64,000 bases of DNA from Phaeobacter porticola (GTDB lineage: Bacteria > Pseudomonadota > Alphaproteobacteria > Rhodobacterales > Rhodobacteraceae): assembly GCF_001888185.1 (NCBI RefSeq), contig NZ_CP016364.1, forward strand, positions 3,472,001-3,536,000, read 5' to 3'. Below, piece after piece: positions 27,123 to 59,048 of the stretch (within the stretch, counting starts at the first letter, position 1; each line of letters starts with the position of its first letter). Under the pieces are notes generated by a model. It saw only the letters and a list, made by a program, of their open reading frames with translations. It searched no databases and had not been told where the DNA came from. The position numbers were made by a program, and so were the translations under genes.

Positions 27123-28520
27123 ATGAGCGCAACAAACATAGATCTGCTCAGCGGTCAGGAGCGCAGCCACTGGATCCGGCTGCGCACGCTGATCCTTCTG
27201 CGTTGGGTTGCTATTGTCGGCCAGATTTCGGCCATCACCGTGGCGCAGCAGCTCTATAACCTGCAGCTAGAACTGGTACTGTGCTATATTGCGATTGGCG
27301 TTTCGGTGCTGGGTAACCTGATTGCCATTATCCTGTTTCCCCAGAATAAGCGTCTGTCAGAATTCGAGAATTTTTTGATGGTTCTCTTCGATCTCTTGCA
27401 GCTGAACTTTCTGCTCTACCTGACTGGCGGATTGAACAACCCCTTTGCATTGCTGGTGCTAGGGCCGGTGACCATCTCCGCCTCAATGATGCGACTGCGA
27501 TCCACGCTGATCATTGGCGCAACGGCGATTATCCTTGTGACATTGCTTGCCGAGTTTCACCTACCCCTGCGCACACCGCAAGGTTTTGTGCTGCGGGTGC
27601 CGGACATCTTTGTGTTCGGCAATTGGACCGCTATCGTGATTGCGGTGTTGTTCATCGGCGCCTACTCCTATCGCATCAGCGCCGAGATCCGGTCGATGTC
27701 TGATGCGCTGGCCGCAACCCAGATGGCCCTGTCGCGCGAACAAAAGTTGACCGATCTTGGCGGTGTGGTGGCTGCCGCGGCGCATGAGCTGGGCACACCA
27801 TTGGCCACAATCAAACTGGCCAGTGCAGAGCTGATAGATGAACTGGATGACAGAGCCGATCTGCGAGAAGACGCCGTTCTGATCCGTGAACAGGCCGACC
27901 GATGCCGTGATATCCTGCGCAGCATGGGGCGCGCCGGAAAGGACGATCTACATCTGCGGCAAGCCCCTCTATCCACCGTGATAAACGAAGCAGCCGAGCC
28001 GCATATGTACCGCGGCAAGACCGTCATCTTTGAAGAAGCCCCGGAAAGCGATGGCAACCCGCAGCACCCCACCATCCTGCGTCAGCCAGAAATCATCCAC
28101 GGTCTGCGCAACTTGGTCCAGAATGCGGTGGACTTTGCCCGTACAACCGTCTGGATCGACGCCAGTTGGAGTGACGAAACCATCACCTTACGCATCAGTG
28201 ACAATGGGCGGGGTTATCCCTCACATTTGCTCGGCCGGATCGGAGACCCCTTTATGCGTCGTCGGCGCAGCGACAGCGATCGGCGTCAGCGGCCCGAATA
28301 CGAAGGCATGGGGCTAGGCCTATTCATAGCAAAGACATTGCTGGAACGCAGCGGTGCACAGCTGACATTCGCCAATGGCTCCGATCCCAACCAAACGCTG
28401 TCTCGTGATCCTGCGCGTCGAGGTGCCTTGGTGCAAGTCACCTGGCCGCGTAGCAAGATTGACGCTCTTACGGGGGAAAATGCCGTTCCAATCGGAGAAA
28501 ATAAACGTATAGAAATTTAA
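27123..28520 (+). CDS. regB: Redox sensor histidine kinase RegB/PrrB/ActS
   Basis: RegB senses the quinone pool and the redox state and phosphorylates RegA. The 465-residue protein has six membrane helices in its first 185 residues or so. The quinone-binding motif GGLNNPF is at 102-108. The phosphorylated His221 lies in AAAHELGTPLATIK, and the redox-active Cys261 in QADRCRDILRSMGRAGKDDL. N, G1 and G2 boxes (LVQNAVDFA, ISDNGRGYP, GMGLGLFIAKTLLE) follow. All known sensing residues are kept, so it should be a working sensor. It is divergent from senC-regA. Confidence 0.96.
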   Translation: MSATNIDLLSGQERSHWIRLRTLILLRWVAIVGQISAITVAQQLYNLQLELVLCYIAIGVSVLGNLIAIILFPQNKRLSEFENFLMVLFDLLQLNFLLYLTGGLNNPFALLVLGPVTISASMMRLRSTLIIGATAIILVTLLAEFHLPLRTPQGFVLRVPDIFVFGNWTAIVIAVLFIGAYSYRISAEIRSMSDALAATQMALSREQKLTDLGGVVAAAAHELGTPLATIKLASAELIDELDDRADLREDAVLIREQADRCRDILRSMGRAGKDDLHLRQAPLSTVINEAAEPHMYRGKTVIFEEAPESDGNPQHPTILRQPEIIHGLRNLVQNAVDFARTTVWIDASWSDETITLRISDNGRGYPSHLLGRIGDPFMRRRRSDSDRRQRPEYEGMGLGLFIAKTLLERSGAQLTFANGSDPNQTLSRDPARRGALVQVTWPRSKIDALTGENAVPIGENKRIEI

Positions 28521-28542
28521 CTATTCACTTTTAGGCAACCAA

Positions 28543-28557
28543 TTAAACTTCATTTAA
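28543..28557 (+). promoter_or_regulatory. CtrA box upstream of divL
   Basis: TTAAACTTCATTTAA is a perfect TTAA-N7-TTAA match. It lies in the short gap after regB, 46 bp before the ATG chosen for divL. Because DivL acts in the CtrA phosphorelay, this suggests feedback. Confidence 0.65.
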
Positions 28558-28603
28558 CCATTATCGGGAAACATCAGTCGGGAGAGTGAAACACTTGTGG
28601 GTA

Positions 28604-30163
28604 ATGAACATCATGCAGCAGATCCTATCTACTGATTGGCTTGTATTGGCGACGCTTTGTGTGGCGACAGCAGCGGCCGCTGTTTGGTGGCTTTCTCCCA
28701 ACCCCAAACCCAAAGGGTTCGAGCAGGACCTACTTCAAGGCGACGGGCGCTCGGACGCGGTGTTTCTGTTTGACGACACCACACTGATCGGCTGGTCGTC
28801 AGGCGCGCGTCGCTTCATTGGTGAACAGGCTGAGAATTTCAGCTGGGCGAACCTACGTGAACAATTGGCCCGCAGCTATCCGGGTCTGCCACAATCCCCA
28901 GGCTTCCTGAAAGACGTGGGTCCACTGGTCCTGTCCGGCACCGCAAATGCCGAAAGCCGCGAGGCGCTTTGCGAGTGGATCGACGGTGTGACCCGCGTGC
29001 AGTTGCGCAGCACCACATCCGAGGAACAGAACCACAGCATCGATCAGGAGCTGACCACATTGCGTTCCGCCGTGCATCAGGCGCCATACCCGGTCTGGCT
29101 GCAGTCGGATGGTGGTGCCGTGACATGGTCCAATCTGGCCTATGATGACCTTAGCCAGAAGATCCGCGGTCGAAATGTGGATTTTGCCGAACCTCTGTTC
29201 ACTGATCTGGACGACCCAATGGCCAGCGGCAAGCCGGAGCGAATTGCGATTCCTCTACCCGAGAGCAAAAAGAAGCTGTGGTACAATATCTCCACCACCG
29301 AGACTGAGGCCGGATGGCTGTGTCACGCCGTGGATGTAAATGCGGTCGTTGACGCCGAAATCGCCCAGCGCAATTTCGTACAGACCCTGGCCAAAACCTT
29401 TGCTCAGCTATCCATTGGGCTGGCCATTTTCGATCGCAACCGTCAGCTGGTGCTGTTTAACCCAGTGCTCATCGACCTAACTGCCCTGCCCGCGAATTTT
29501 CTTAGTTCGCGCCCCAATCTCCTTACGTTTTTTGACCGGCTGCGTGACCAACGGATGATGCCGGAACCCAAGAATTATTCAAGCTGGCGCCACCAGATGG
29601 CCGATCTGCTAGAGGCGGCTGCCGAAGGCCGCTATCAGGAAACATGGTCGCTGCCGTCGGGTTCAGTCTACTCGGTGTCTGGCCGACCGCACCCAGATGG
29701 CGCAATTGCCTTCTTATTCGAGGACATCACCGCCGAAATCACGCTGACCCGCCAATTCCGCTCTGAACTGGAAATGGGCCAGTCGATCATGGACCAAATG
29801 GACGAGGCAATTGCGGTCTTTGCCAATGATGGCACGATGACATTTTCCAACGCGGCCTATCACGATCTCTGGCAGATGGATCCCGACGGCAGCTTTGCCA
29901 AAATCACCATCATGGACTCCAGCCGTATCTGGCAAGACCTGTGCGCTGCGACCCCTGCCTGGGGCGAGATCCGCGATTTTGTGGCAGGCAGCGACAGCCG
30001 AGCCCCCTGGTGGGCCAATGTTCAGCTGCGCAACGGCACGCCATTGGTCTGCAAGGTCAGCGCCATCCAGAACGGAGCCACCATGGTGAGCTTCCGGGCG
30101 CCGGATCCTGATCCTGCGCCCGTCGAACAGCAGCGCTTTGCCATCAAAAATCAGGAAAAATAA
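28604..30163 (+). CDS. divL: DivL-like PAS-domain protein without a kinase domain
   Basis: The 519-residue product has one membrane helix at about 11-30 and then several PAS-type segments (for example LAIFDRNRQLVLFNPVLIDL and AIAVFANDGTMTFSNAAYHD). It ends after the last PAS domain, with no HisKA or HATPase part. This fits the short DivL described in Rhodobacter, which affects CtrA phosphorylation. The following tsaE-amgK-murU-addBA order supports the assignment. The start is uncertain: TTG 28595 has a better-spaced GGAGAG, and GTG 28586 is open too. A perfect CtrA box lies upstream and a strong terminator follows. Confidence 0.72.
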   Translation: MNIMQQILSTDWLVLATLCVATAAAAVWWLSPNPKPKGFEQDLLQGDGRSDAVFLFDDTTLIGWSSGARRFIGEQAENFSWANLREQLARSYPGLPQSPGFLKDVGPLVLSGTANAESREALCEWIDGVTRVQLRSTTSEEQNHSIDQELTTLRSAVHQAPYPVWLQSDGGAVTWSNLAYDDLSQKIRGRNVDFAEPLFTDLDDPMASGKPERIAIPLPESKKKLWYNISTTETEAGWLCHAVDVNAVVDAEIAQRNFVQTLAKTFAQLSIGLAIFDRNRQLVLFNPVLIDLTALPANFLSSRPNLLTFFDRLRDQRMMPEPKNYSSWRHQMADLLEAAAEGRYQETWSLPSGSVYSVSGRPHPDGAIAFLFEDITAEITLTRQFRSELEMGQSIMDQMDEAIAVFANDGTMTFSNAAYHDLWQMDPDGSFAKITIMDSSRIWQDLCAATPAWGEIRDFVAGSDSRAPWWANVQLRNGTPLVCKVSAIQNGATMVSFRAPDPDPAPVEQQRFAIKNQEK

Positions 30164-49816: not shown

Positions 49817-50646
49817 GCCAATGCAGCCTCCCGCGTGGCGGCATCAACTTCAGGTCGGGTTCCAAACCAACGCTCAAATCCCGGTACCGCCTGATGCAAC
49901 AGCATCCCCAAACCATCAACGGTGGTGCAACCAATATCCCCCGCCCATTGCAGCATTTCTGTTTTTAATGGTGTGTAGACAAGATCAGTCACAACTGTAT
50001 CTGAACGCAGGCCATCCAGCGGCACCCGCAAACGAGGTTTTCCAACCATCCCCAGAGAGGTCGTGTTGATCAACAGCGCCGCCTGTTCGATAAAATTGCC
50101 AACCTGTACCCAGTCCACCACCTGAATACGGGAGCCAAACTCACTGCGGAACTGGTCCGCCCGCTCTCGTGTCCGGTTGCTCAGAAAAATCTCAGGTACG
50201 CCTGCCTCAAGCAGTGAGGCGATCACCGCGCGACTGGCACCGCCAGCACCAAATACAACAGCCGGACCTGTCGCAGGATCCCAGTCCGGCGCGGATTGGT
50301 GCAAGTTGGTGATAAAACCGTAGCCGTCTGTGTTATCAGCAAGAATCGAGCCGTCAGGTCGGAAGATCAGCGTGTTGGCAGCGCCAATCAATGTCGCGCG
50401 ATCCGTCACCTGATCGGCGATCTCCATGATCTGTTCCTTGTGCGGAATGGTGATGTTGGCACCGACAAACCCCAACTTCGGTAGGCTACGTACCACTGTT
50501 TCCAAGTGCGATGGCTCCACGTGCAGCGGCACATAATGGCCACTTATGCCATAGGTCTTAAGCCAGTGCCCATGCACCAAAGGTGACCGGGAATGGGCCA
50601 CCGGGCTGCCGATCACGCCAGCCAGCGGAATTCGTGCCTCGCTCAT
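49813..50646 (-). CDS. aroE: Shikimate dehydrogenase
   Basis: AroE reduces 3-dehydroshikimate to shikimate with NADPH in aromatic amino-acid synthesis. The 277-residue protein has [20 protein letters not shown] (substrate site), [13 protein letters not shown] with the catalytic Lys, [20 protein letters not shown] (NADP fold) and [19 protein letters not shown] near the end. It overlaps both maf and coaE by 4 bp. Confidence 0.95.
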
Positions 50647-51242
50647 TGTTCAATCACTCCCTGCAGCGCCAAATAGTTGATCAGCTCCAACAAAGGTAAT
50701 CCAAGCACATTGAAGTAGTCTCCCTCGATGGTGCTGAACAAACGAACCCCTTCTTCTTCCAACTTATATCCGCCAACGGCATGCTGAATGCTGTCCCAGT
50801 TTCGCGTCACGTAACCGCGTAGATAAGCCTCAGAACTAGACCGCATCCGAAGGCGGACCTGTCCTATATGCCGCCATAGCGGTTTGTTATCGCGATAGAT
50901 CACCGCTGCGGACAGTAACATGTGCCGTTTGCCTCGCATCGCGATGAGCTGAGCCAGCGCTTCATCCGAATCTTTTGCTTTTGATAACAATTGTCCCTCA
51001 AACTCGAGCACCTGATCACATCCTAACACGAGCGCGCCGGGATGTTTGGCACTGACCTTCCGCGCCTTCGCCTCGGCTAGAGTATCAGCAATATCACGCG
51101 GGCTTGCGGCCTCTGCCAGGAGAGCCGCCTTGATAGCCTCCTCGTCGATGCGAGCTGGCGAAATCTCGAAGGGGACCTGAGCCTGCTGCAACAGCGCGGC
51201 CCGGATCTGCGAGCCGGACGCCAAAAGGATGTGGGTAGACAT
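50643..51242 (-). CDS. maf: Maf-family nucleotide pyrophosphatase
   Basis: Maf proteins hydrolyse modified or canonical nucleoside triphosphates and are linked to septum inhibition. ATG 51242 gives 199 residues starting [20 protein letters not shown] (family motif S-x-S-x-x-R). [20 protein letters not shown] holds the conserved catalytic Asp, and [20 protein letters not shown] is the late motif. It is the gene nearest the candidate replication origin on the left and is transcribed away from it, with three overlapping partners behind it. Confidence 0.92.
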
Positions 51243-51647
51243 GTGGAAAACCCCGTGGGCAAGAGTGTGATGAACTTTGGATGGTTTGTATGAAATTTCG
51301 ACCATTTCGCAAGCCGTGGAGGACTCAAAACTCCCCGTTTTCTTGCCGGCAGATTCGCCCTGAGAGGATAGGGATAACTTTGCAATCGTGGATATCCGAG
51401 TTACCCTGACTTTGCCCCAGGATTATCCCCATAGCCGTATTCATGAATTATTCCTTAAAATCTCTTATTTTTATAGCCCCTCGACAAGAGACATCATGCC
51501 GCTGTGGGTAATACTGGTAAGTTATCCTAGGTCGGGATAAGTCAGGGGATGAGTCACTTATCCACCAAAAACCGGGTACACTACTAAAACATCATCCTTA
51601 TAAAATACTTATATTTTAAGGGGAGAGAGGGAACCGAAAGGCTGACC
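51243..51647. other. Candidate chromosomal replication origin (oriC)
   Basis: This 405-bp segment has no gene and lies between maf and hemJ, diverging transcription units in the position where oriC is found in several alphaproteobacteria. DnaA-box-like sites (TTATCCACA type): TTATCCACC at 51558-51566, TTATCCCCA at 51423-51431, TTACCCACA at 51503-51511 (minus), TTTTCCACA at 51242-51250 (minus), and weaker TTATCCCTA (51369-51377) and TTATCCCGA (51532-51540) on the minus strand. Two AT-rich stretches, 51445-51476 and 51586-51620, could be unwinding elements. Two parS sites and parAB follow within 7 kb. Function is inferred. Confidence 0.72.
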
Positions 51648-52103
51648 ATGGATCTAAGCGATCTGCTCTTTGCGATTTACCCTTACGCCAAATCTCTGCA
51701 CATCATGGCAGTGATCAGCTGGATGGCAGGTCTCTTCTATTTACCACGTCTGTTTGTTTATCACGTTGAACAGGCTGAGAACGTACCTGAGAGCCTTCCG
51801 ATCTTTGTCATGATGGAGGACAAGTTGCTTCGGATCATCATGCGCCCCGCAATGTACGTCAGCTGGGCTGCAGGAGGACTAATGGTCCTGACACCGGGGT
51901 TGGTCGATTGGAGCAGCCTTTGGCCGTGGAGCAAGGGCCTGAGCGTTCTGGCAATGACTTGGTTCCATCACTGGCTGTTGATCCGGCATCGTGAGTTCGC
52001 AAGCGGCGTGAATAGCCGAACTGGCCGCAGCTATAGAATGATGAACGAAGTTCCGACATTGCTGATGGTGATCATAGTGGTATCGGTCATTTTTAAGTTT
52101 TGA
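51648..52103 (+). CDS. hemJ: Protoporphyrinogen IX oxidase HemJ
   Basis: HemJ oxidises protoporphyrinogen IX to protoporphyrin IX in bacteria that lack HemG and HemY oxidases. The 151-residue membrane protein has four helices. SLHIMAVISWMAGLFYLPRL contains the conserved His that is essential in the family, and the later RMMNEVPTLLMVIIV is also typical. It is the first gene to the right of the candidate oriC. Haem-synthesis genes at the origin are common in alphaproteobacteria (hemE in Caulobacter). Confidence 0.93.
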   Translation: MDLSDLLFAIYPYAKSLHIMAVISWMAGLFYLPRLFVYHVEQAENVPESLPIFVMMEDKLLRIIMRPAMYVSWAAGGLMVLTPGLVDWSSLWPWSKGLSVLAMTWFHHWLLIRHREFASGVNSRTGRSYRMMNEVPTLLMVIIVVSVIFKF

Positions 52104-54833: not shown

Positions 54834-54849
54834 TGTTTCACGTGAAACA
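54834..54849. other. parS centromere site 1
   Basis: TGTTTCACGTGAAACA is a perfect 16-bp match to the conserved ParB-binding parS sequence. It lies between the Shine-Dalgarno AAGGAG (54828-54833) and the GTG start (54842) of mnmG and overlaps that start codon. Three kb from the candidate oriC and 2.5 kb before parA, it fits chromosomal parS placement. Confidence 0.95.
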
Positions 54850-56717: not shown

Positions 56718-57332
56718 ATGACTGACGTGGAAATTGGGAACACGGTTGTTTCACGTGAAACATATGATCGGTTAAAGCACTATGAAAGCCTAGTCCAAAA
56801 ATGGTCACCTAAGATCAATTTAGTATCCAAAAATACGTTAGGTGACGTTTGGGAACGACATATCATTGACTCAGTACAGGTGTGCCAATTTATCGAGCAC
56901 CCTGATATCTGGCTGGATATCGGTAGTGGTGGCGGATTTCCAGGCGTGGTTGCAGCAATCGTTGCAGCTGAGTGTTCGCCAGATTGCAGGGTTACTCTTG
57001 TTGAAAGTGATAAGAGAAAGTGTGCCTTTCTTCGAAACGCGATTCGTGAATGCTCCATCACAGCAGAGGTCATTTCGGAGCGTATAGAAACAGTCAAACC
57101 TATGAACGCCAGTGTACTTTCCGCGCGTGCCTTGGCCGACCTAAATGGCTTGCTTGAATATGCCGAAAGACATCTCGCAATAGACGGAGTTGCATTGTTC
57201 CCAAAGGGGATTCAGTGGAAAAAAGAAGTGGATAACGCTAGGAGCCAATGGCGTTTCGATCTGGAATCCACTAAGAGTTGGACTGAACCCGAAGCTGTTA
57301 TTCTAAAGATCAAGGGAGTGGCGCGTGTCTGA
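56718..57332 (+). CDS. rsmG: 16S rRNA (guanine527-N7)-methyltransferase RsmG (GidB)
   Basis: RsmG methylates G527 of 16S rRNA; loss gives mild streptomycin resistance. I choose ATG 56718 (MTDVEIGNTVVSRETYDRL), where the VSRET motif lies nearer the N terminus as in related proteins. ATG 56700 would add six residues and overlap mnmG; neither has a strong ribosome-binding site. The 204 residues show KINLVSKNTLGDVWERHIID, the SAM site WLDIGSGGGFPGVVAAIV and VLSARALADLNGLL. VSRET is encoded by the parS sequence. AT-rich like mnmG. Confidence 0.93.
   Translation: MTDVEIGNTVVSRETYDRLKHYESLVQKWSPKINLVSKNTLGDVWERHIIDSVQVCQFIEHPDIWLDIGSGGGFPGVVAAIVAAECSPDCRVTLVESDKRKCAFLRNAIRECSITAEVISERIETVKPMNASVLSARALADLNGLLEYAERHLAIDGVALFPKGIQWKKEVDNARSQWRFDLESTKSWTEPEAVILKIKGVARV
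56747..56762. other. parS centromere site 2 inside rsmG
   Basis: A second perfect TGTTTCACGTGAAACA, 1.9 kb after the first and inside rsmG, where it encodes V-S-R-E-T (reading GTTTCACGTGAAACA). It lies 563 bp before parA. Confidence 0.95.
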
Positions 57333-58134
57333 TTTGTCTCGGCCTGCTGGGCCTCGTATCATGGCAGTAGCGAACCAAAAGGGCGGAGTAGGTAAAACCA
57401 CAACCGCAATCAACTTAGCAGCGGCTTTGGTCGAAATTGGTTACCGAGTCTTGGTTGTAGACCTTGACCCTCAAGGTAACGCGTCGACTGGCCTGGGCAT
57501 CGAGGCGACAGATCGAAATTTGACGACCTACGATCTTCTTGTTGATGATACACCTTTGAAAGAGGTTATTCGAGAAACCGATATCGATGATCTTTGCATT
57601 ATCCCCGCAACTGTAGACTTAAGTTCAGCGGATATTGAATTGTTTGCGAATGAGAAGCGCAGCTTTTTGTTGCATGATGCTCTTCGACAGCCCGCAATGG
57701 ATGAATATGACTGGGACTATATCTTGATCGACTGCCCGCCATCACTGAATCTTTTGACGGTAAATGCGATGGTTGCGGCCCATTCGGTACTAGTTCCACT
57801 TCAAAGTGAGTTTTTTGCACTTGAGGGGGTGTCCCAGTTGATGTTGAGCATCCGTGAGGTCCGACAAACAGCGAATGCTGAATTGAGGATCGAGGGGATT
57901 GTTTTGACGATGTTCGACCGCCGGAATAATCTTTCGCAGCAAGTGGAACAGGATGCGCGGACTCACTTGGGGGAGCTGGTGTTTGAAACTAAGATACCTC
58001 GAAATGTGCGAGTCAGCGAAGCACCGTCTTTTGCACTGCCGGTGTTGAATTATGACACGAACTCGCTCGGGGCAAACGCATATCGTGCCCTTGCGAAAGA
58101 ACTGATTGCGAGACACCAGAAACTCGCAGCCTAA
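57325..58134 (+). CDS. parA: Chromosome partitioning ATPase ParA
   Basis: ParA is the Walker-type ATPase that moves the ParB-parS complex and so segregates the origin. The GTG start at 57325 follows AAGGGAG and overlaps the rsmG end by 8 bp. The 269 residues contain the deviant Walker A KGGVGKTT at 19-26 (with the signature Lys19), VLVVDLDPQGNASTGLGI, and YILIDCPPSLNLLTVNAMVA. Its codon use returns to moderately GC-rich toward the end. It is followed after 20 bp by parB. Confidence 0.97.
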   Translation: MSDLSRPAGPRIMAVANQKGGVGKTTTAINLAAALVEIGYRVLVVDLDPQGNASTGLGIEATDRNLTTYDLLVDDTPLKEVIRETDIDDLCIIPATVDLSSADIELFANEKRSFLLHDALRQPAMDEYDWDYILIDCPPSLNLLTVNAMVAAHSVLVPLQSEFFALEGVSQLMLSIREVRQTANAELRIEGIVLTMFDRRNNLSQQVEQDARTHLGELVFETKIPRNVRVSEAPSFALPVLNYDTNSLGANAYRALAKELIARHQKLAA

Positions 58135-58154
58135 CATCATCTGGAGGCGCAGTA

Positions 58155-59048
58155 ATGTCAGAAAAAAGAAACAAACCCAGAGGATTGGGGAGAGGCTTGT
58201 CAGCTCTAATGGCCGATGTGAACCCGGAACCTGTTAGTACAGAAAAGCAGGCCGTCAGAAGCACCGAAGTGATGGTGCCAATCGAAATGGTAATCGCGAA
58301 CCCGGATCAGCCGCGTCGTCAGTTCTTACAGGAAGATCTGGATGACCTGACGGCGTCGATTCGCGAGAAGGGGGTTCTGCAACCCTTGATCGTGCGGCCC
58401 CGGGATAGTGGTCAGTATGAGATTGTTGCGGGGGAACGTCGCTGGCGTGCAGCCCAGGCTGCACAGCTCCACGAAGTTCCGGTACTAATCCGTAACTATT
58501 CAGATGTAGAGATGATGGAAGTTGCTATCATCGAAAACATCCAGCGTTCTGATCTGAACGCGATGGAAGAGGCGCAGAGCTACAAACAGTTGATGGATAA
58601 GTTCGGCCATACTCAAGAAAGAATGGCAGAGGCGCTTGGAAAAAGCCGTAGTCATATTGCGAACTTGGTGCGCCTACTACATCTTCCAGAAGATGTACAA
58701 TCTCTGGTACATGAGAGAAGGCTCTCGGCAGGTCATGCAAGGGCGCTGATCACTTCTGACAACGCGTCTGATTTGGCAAAAAAGATTGTCAAAGGTGGTC
58801 TATCAGTTCGCGCGACTGAGGCTCTGGTCAAGAAAGATGCCGCTGGTTTGCAGATTGCAACCGCTCGGTCGGCGAAGAAGGCCGGGGAAAAGGATGCAGA
58901 TACTCGTGCTCTGGAAGCGGATCTGTCAGCAGCGCTGCGTATGAAGGTGTCTATTGATCATAAGGCGGGCGGTGAAGCCGGGGTTGTAACCATTGGCTAT
59001 GGTTCGCTGGATGAGTTGGATGACCTATGCGGGCGACTTAGCCGTTAG
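58155..59048 (+). CDS. parB: Chromosome partitioning protein ParB
   Basis: ParB binds parS, spreads as a CTP-dependent clamp and recruits ParA and condensin. The 297-residue protein starts MSEKRNKPRGLGRGLSALMA (the ParA-stimulating motif GLGRGLSAL). It contains the CTPase motif GERRWRAAQ and the helix-turn-helix around QERMAEALGKSRSHIANLVR, and it ends in a dimerisation helix. The 3' end overlaps the convergent DUF454 gene by 11 bp, and the likely terminator lies inside that gene. Confidence 0.97.
   Translation: MSEKRNKPRGLGRGLSALMADVNPEPVSTEKQAVRSTEVMVPIEMVIANPDQPRRQFLQEDLDDLTASIREKGVLQPLIVRPRDSGQYEIVAGERRWRAAQAAQLHEVPVLIRNYSDVEMMEVAIIENIQRSDLNAMEEAQSYKQLMDKFGHTQERMAEALGKSRSHIANLVRLLHLPEDVQSLVHERRLSAGHARALITSDNASDLAKKIVKGGLSVRATEALVKKDAAGLQIATARSAKKAGEKDADTRALEADLSAALRMKVSIDHKAGGEAGVVTIGYGSLDELDDLCGRLSR

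Follow-up and report, generated by a model that had tools for sequence, protein, structure and literature searches.

Organization of the Locus

The window, that is, the whole 64-kb stretch of Phaeobacter porticola DNA analysed here, corresponds to positions 3472001–3536000 of C1, the chromosomal contig of 3,653,592 bases in an assembly of 4.21 Mb and 6 contigs. The region under study is the short gap between the divergently oriented genes maf and hemJ (Table 1). To the left maf is followed by aroE, coaE, dnaQ, and secB, and to the right hemJ is followed by rho, mnmE, mnmG, rsmG, parA, and parB, where rsmG was named from gene order and similarity and is without a family match at E 1e-40. Diverging flanks and this order of neighbours had been proposed in a preliminary description of the DNA and are borne out by reading frames and profile matches. 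Among the matches returned for HemJ the nearest named one belongs to Phaeobacter italicus (87%), followed by Leisingera (75–80%), and the HemJ proteins of four further genomes of the same genus reach 89–91%.

The gap was previously regarded as gene-free, which holds for the interval between maf and hemJ, but its leftmost DnaA box reaches into the start codon of maf (51240–51242). For maf the longest possible frame would begin at 51305; position 51242 is taken as the presumed start because the match to the Maf model begins at residue 1 of that start. The G+C content of the gap is 44.9% versus 56.2% on the left and 51.8% on the right. Two AT-rich blocks, also reported earlier, are real and hold the highest-AT 20-mers of the window; an AT-rich candidate unwinding element adjoins the DnaA boxes. 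At a length of 60 bases the highest AT content of the window falls outside the gap, at 28498, within a stretch (28495–28604) where a one-mismatch DnaA box (28596–28604) lies just past the AT-rich 60-mer.

Table 1: Features of the maf–hemJ gap and its surroundings (window coordinates).
Feature	Position	Strand	Remarks
Predicted oriC	51243–51647		405 bp gap, divergent maf/hemJ; skew minimum 51143, densest DnaA-box cluster in 657,592 sampled bases, kept length
maf, left flank	50643–51242	−	TIGR00172, 118.2 bits, cut-off 117.15
hemJ, right flank	51648–52103	+	TIGR00701, E 7.2e-35, 120.2 bits, under curated cut-off 138.05
parA and parB	57325–59048	+	ParB domain TIGR00180, 1.9e-59; ParA-type ATPase matches
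DnaA box TTTTCCACA	51242–51250	−	overlaps maf start codon; ≤2 mismatches in 98/103 relatives
Weak DnaA box TTATCCCTA	51369–51377	−	≤2 mismatches in 45/103 relatives
Weak DnaA box ATATCCACG	51387–51395	−	≤2 mismatches in 55/103 relatives
DnaA box TTATCCCCA	51423–51431	+	≤2 mismatches in 92/103 relatives
Second AT-rich block	51455–51475		20-mers 90% AT
Box-like TTACCCACA, doubtful	51503–51511	−	not conserved: ≤2 mismatches in 20/103 relatives
Weak DnaA box TTATCCCGA	51532–51540	−	≤2 mismatches in 89/103 relatives
DnaA box TTATCCACC, presumed unwinding-module anchor	51558–51566	+	≤2 mismatches in 95/103 relatives
Tract CTA CTA AAA CAT CAT CCT, candidate single-strand DnaA-binding element (putatively trio-like)	51581–51598	+	5 of 6 triplets begin with C
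AT-rich block, presumed DNA unwinding element	51597–51620		20-mers 90–95% AT, highest in window
parS	54834–54849		exact TGTTTCACGTGAAACA, C1:3526834, inside mnmG start
parS	56747–56762		exact TGTTTCACGTGAAACA, C1:3528747, inside rsmG

DnaA Boxes and Their Conservation

Each of the four boxes with at most one mismatch listed in the preliminary description was found at its position with exactly one mismatch to TTATCCACA, and a perfect box is absent from the gap. Over the whole window one-mismatch boxes are not enriched (12 versus 9.83 expected from shuffles), and it is their clustering that is unusual. Among 645,068 sliding 405-base windows drawn from 657,592 sampled bases, or 18% of the chromosome, the gap is the sole place with four such sites, and when two mismatches are allowed it contains 7 boxes (8 if the frame is shifted), a number that no other sampled stretch approaches by more than 5. 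The second-best cluster, three one-mismatch boxes within 323 bases at C1:12142–12464, is located some 11 kb beyond dnaA, where no reading frame reaches 120 aa and the skew does not switch.

Conservation was estimated from 109 relative loci, 103 of which were used after removal of four without a maf match and two with a gap exceeding 1.2 kb; the two collections overlap (L037 and L071 look alike), and the rows are thus not independent. The genes maf and hemJ diverge around a short gap in 103 of the 109 loci, and the gap measures 397–423 bp in 96 of 104 loci with the window included (range 351–474). Locus L169 (genome G029) is without a maf match at the origin place and has the order aroE, 510 bp, hemJ.

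A box was counted as kept when a relative had a site with at most two mismatches at an offset of no more than 3 positions. By this measure the boxes at 51242, 51423, and 51558 are retained, while the fourth of the originally named sites, 51503–51511, is not; the weaker boxes mentioned earlier are kept in part, the one at 51532 in most relatives. Mean identity is 0.700 in box columns versus 0.454 in the remainder of the gap, and the six internal boxes average 0.679, a value reached in 97 of 20,000 random draws of six 9-mers from the gap.

When the gap is divided into 45 nine-base blocks, 8 have a mean identity of at least 0.70. Two of these (51252 and 51279) are neither box nor tract, and the latter is perhaps part of the maf promoter. 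Such blocks could be expected if conservation were due to a noncoding RNA or leader, which we consider extremely improbable, given that four of the eight (51243, 51369, 51423, and 51558) are DnaA boxes on both strands, two more fall in the tract (51585 and 51594, with mean identities of 0.79 and 0.74), and Rfam gave no match at gathering score in the 64-kb window.

Position on the Chromosome

Within the window the cumulative GC skew has its minimum 100 bp from the gap. On the chromosome scale the skew was determined in 40 stretches (817,187 bases, 22% of the chromosome, with the window counted as two). It is positive in all 18 stretches from 3523648 via the contig end to 1600001, mixed in three stretches near the opposite pole (1620001 to 1660001), and negative in 18 of 19 stretches from 1680001 to 3472001, the exception being 2600001 with +0.0002. 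The skew sum over 1.60–1.82 Mb peaks at 1,673,719, which is 23 kb from the antipode of the gap at 1,696,649. A chromosome-wide skew minimum had been suggested as a check of the origin assignment, and at 22% sampling the stretches are consistent with a replicon-wide minimum at the gap. With the one consensus used, a dif-like site was found neither genome-wide at 3 mismatches nor in the sampled stretches when as many as 7 mismatches to an extended version were allowed, and therefore the placement of the terminus rests on skew.

The two exact parS sites lie 3.2 and 5.1 kb to the right of the gap, and no further site with at most one mismatch exists anywhere in the genome. Both are situated inside the mnmG and rsmG frames, so the corresponding proteins carry parS-encoded residues. 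In this way a box cluster, a skew minimum with an opposite maximum, and a nearby parABS system are all found at the locus.

In many bacteria dnaA adjoins oriC. The record of this chromosome begins at dnaA (C1:16–1419), and three one-mismatch boxes cluster at C1:12142–12464, so an origin at or near dnaA has to be weighed, with the maf–hemJ gap being a divergent promoter with chance boxes. Yet the last 1500 and first 1800 bases of C1 contain no box with one mismatch or fewer, the skew is positive on either side (+0.0402 at C1:3640001 and +0.0932 at C1:1), and there is no parS near dnaA, which makes this assignment highly improbable. The dnaA gene itself, about 130 kb from the gap, was rejected as the origin because it has neither an adjoining box nor a skew switch.

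Descent from the Ancestral Alphaproteobacterial Origin

In Caulobacter crescentus the experimentally identified origin Cori, 404 bp in length, lies between hemE and a COG1806 gene, according to PMC1914354. For comparison, gene order was analysed in 15 stretches belonging to further families of this class (L151–L165). Six of them (L152, L153, L158, L161, L162, and L164) have the order maf, PF03618 gene, gap, hemE, hemJ, rho; four (L154, L160, L163, and L165) have the gap followed by hemE, hemJ, and rho without a frame of PF03618 size; and five (L151, L155, L156, L157, and L159) are incomplete or differently ordered. The PF03618 domain was confirmed in 10 of 10 proteins tested. Inside the window's own family one stretch (L168) retains both PF03618 and hemE at the origin place, and two others (L166 and L167) retain PF03618 with no hemE seen in the stretch. 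Neither flanking marker of the Caulobacter type stands at the gap itself: hemE of the window's genome is located at C1:502219, some 632 kb from the gap; PF03618 (COG1806) has no match in this genome, the family being represented in 5 of 61 genomes of the bacterial family, with the window's own counted among the 61.

From the gene orders in the intermediate genomes it follows that the gap corresponds to the hemE–COG1806 place of the Caulobacter origin. As judged from these gene orders, the gap is best described as the ancestral alphaproteobacterial origin minus its PF03618 and hemE flanks. Of 14 gaps examined, 7 have a minus-strand box with at most one mismatch no farther than 50 nt from where the left gene approximately starts, suggesting that this box may have remained with the origin upon the loss of PF03618.

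The conserved box over the maf start codon, kept in 98 of 103 relatives, together with the expectation that both promoters must fit in the gap, might indicate a DnaA-binding regulatory or titration site controlling maf and hemJ instead of an origin. Such an explanation leaves aside the skew switch, the parS sites, and the place common with the Caulobacter origin, and it is regarded as very unlikely. DnaA binding at 51242–51250 could influence maf expression, and regulation of this kind could exist alongside origin function.

Thus, the gap is predicted, with a probability of about 95%, to be the single bidirectional oriC of the 3.65-Mb chromosome. The computed basis of this assignment consists of the position at the skew switch, the clustering of boxes, the kept boxes and length, and the place common with the ancestral PF03618–hemE origin; the oriC reading of the preliminary description is supported by the skew, by the clustered and conserved boxes, by gene order, and additionally by parS and parAB. 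Weighing against the assignment are that no box in the gap is perfect, that a smaller box cluster occurs past dnaA, though with no skew switch, that no dif-like match was obtained with the consensus used, and that the skew was sampled over 22% of the chromosome. DnaA would bind the boxes spread across the gap and, by analogy with known bacterial origins, would extend from box 51558 over the tract, the AT-rich block beside hemJ would melt, helicases would load, and forks would depart in both directions. ParB at the two parS sites 3–5 kb away probably helps to move the duplicated origin.

This prediction pins the origin of the replicon to about 400 bp, at a distance of 130 kb from where the record begins, and it describes an origin that stayed put while its classical flank markers hemE and COG1806 left. 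Because the place was kept without these genes, the interval from maf to hemJ is where origins of this family should be sought.

The Putative Unwinding Tract

At the right end of the gap box 51558, the tract, and the AT-rich block follow each other in this order. The basal unwinding system (BUS) of Bacillus subtilis consists, according to PMC8287927 and PMC10721633, of a DnaA box, a spacer, and DnaA-trios with the sequence 3′-GAT-5′. When a canonical BUS is defined as a DnaA box, a spacer of at most 16 nt, and at least three 3′-NAN-5′ trios, the window offers either a pair of GAT trios at a spacing of 14 nt or a series of four NAN triplets at 24 nt.

The periodicity of such tracts was evaluated in 120 regions upstream of hemE from the class (29 of 30 loci, 80 additional stretches, and 11 loci from the earlier set); as in the window's genome, hemE need not adjoin an origin in every one of them. 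Runs of triplets beginning with C before AT-rich DNA, counted without a box condition, reach at least 5 triplets in 53 of 120 regions versus 13.2 in shuffles and at least 6 triplets in 36 of 120 versus 4.2. A box-bound count of 27 versus 0.3 is overstated, since the shuffles scrambled the boxes too; with a fairer control, where the box is retained and only the DNA after it is shuffled, C runs of at least 5 triplets start within 16 nt in 31 regions versus 4.8. Canonical NAN repeats of at least 3 with a spacer of at most 16 nt do not rise above chance in this set (45/120 versus 55.6 in shuffles), nor do those of at least 5 (11 versus 10.9), and a spacer of up to 26 nt gives 18/120 versus 15.8 for the latter length. 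For runs of at least 6 triplets at a spacer of up to 26 nt the counts are 18 versus 1.8 for C (shuffle maximum 4), 15 versus 8.3 for A (maximum 15), 10 versus 6.2 for T (maximum 11), and 3 versus 1.4 for G (maximum 5), so that among the four letters the C-periodicity stands out most. The 27 box-bound tracts comprise 158 triplets, namely, CAA (52), CTA (34), CCA (21), CCT (20), CAT (15), and others (16); their middle base is A in 71, C in 47, T in 39, and G in 1, and consequently only 39 of the 158 triplets give the middle adenine of a canonical trio on the opposite strand.

The window's family is mixed. An 18-mer with C at no fewer than 5 of 6 first positions precedes AT-rich DNA in 98 of 104 loci, with 19.1 in shuffles, a few of these loci having the 18-mer at a different place; the same count, taken for other letters as raw numbers without shuffles, is 81 for T and 89 for A on the other strand. 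Uninterrupted C runs of at least 5 triplets after a box occur in only 6 of 104 loci, while T-periodic (NAN) runs of this length with a spacer of up to 26 nt occur in 60 versus 26.1 in shuffles, and runs of at least 6 are found in 48 versus 11.1 for T and in 4 versus 0.3 for C. With at least three NAN triplets and a spacer of at most 16 nt the count is 59/104 versus 82.2 in shuffles. Both a C-periodic reading and canonical trios with a longer spacer are therefore possible for the window.

The initiator protein offers a second line of comparison. According to PMC10721633, the DnaA of B. subtilis touches the middle adenine of the trio through Asn187 and the guanine through Arg202 and Glu228; cytosine was accepted in place of the middle adenine, whereas guanine or thymine worked worse. 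The weakening of the B. subtilis origin by G or T at the middle position makes a tolerant pocket less likely, provided that the protein is not different. In an alignment to chain 8btg, with residues paired by eye, DnaA of the window's genome carries Tyr, Lys, and Glu at the positions of Asn187, Arg202, and Glu228, respectively. The Asn187 position is aromatic in 30 of 31 DnaA proteins of the class (Tyr 26, Phe 4, Arg 1), which come mostly from genomes chosen for having the tract, and among 27 proteins from other classes of the phylum, which were drawn from the top scorers in a set of 120 genomes, it is occupied by A in 11, Q in 9, T in 4, S in 2, and N in 1; since most DnaA proteins outside the class are without Asn too, the residue comparison is not clean. 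Lys at the Arg202 position is not special to the class (31/31 versus 25/27 in other classes), and Glu228 is kept in 58 of 58 proteins. Apart from the initiator, fifteen equal-scoring matches of a DnaA-like ATPase (247-aa frame) were detected on the chromosome and two other contigs (C1, C2, and C3), and they are probably copies of the helper ATPase of one multi-copy insertion sequence.

From these observations the tentative, rather doubtful idea arises that alphaproteobacterial origins use a deviant DnaA-trio which has co-diverged with DnaA. Such a trio would have C at every third base on the box strand (5′-CNN-3′, often CAA, CTA, or CCA), and the strand held by DnaA would read 3′-GNN-5′, with the canonical middle adenine not kept; CTACTAAAACATCATCCT of the window would then represent such a tract with an interruption. 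That some trios lack the middle adenine has already been suspected in PMC8287927, and a C-periodic tract together with a changed DnaA residue would make this suspicion directly testable. An alphaproteobacterial C-periodic tract was not described in the search listings and paper passages covered, and it may already be in print.

Comparison with Known Origins

The right end of the gap resembles the BUS of B. subtilis in having a box, a spacer, a short-period tract, and AT-rich DNA in the same order. It differs in that the window has only two adjacent 3′-GAT-5′ trios (51581–51586), followed by a break, and that across the class-wide set it is the first G, not the middle A, which recurs periodically.

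With Cori of C. crescentus (PMC1914354) the gap has the length, the DnaA boxes, and the AT-rich block in common, and with the class relatives of Cori it shares the flanking cluster of maf-aroE-coaE-dnaQ and hemJ-rho. Unlike Cori, the gap has a distant hemE, PF03618 was not found in its genome, and the matches to CtrA and IHF sites are weak: one near-match to TTAA-N7-TTAA lies at 51444 (at least one in 58/103 relatives versus 23.1 in shuffles) and one IHF near-match at 51599 (at least one in 63/103 versus 35.4).

The origins assigned by Ori-Finder in 101 Rhodobacteraceae are characterized in PMC6699656 by a skew minimum, a local GC minimum, DnaA boxes, and nearby parAB, all of which are present here; the comparison covers these criteria.
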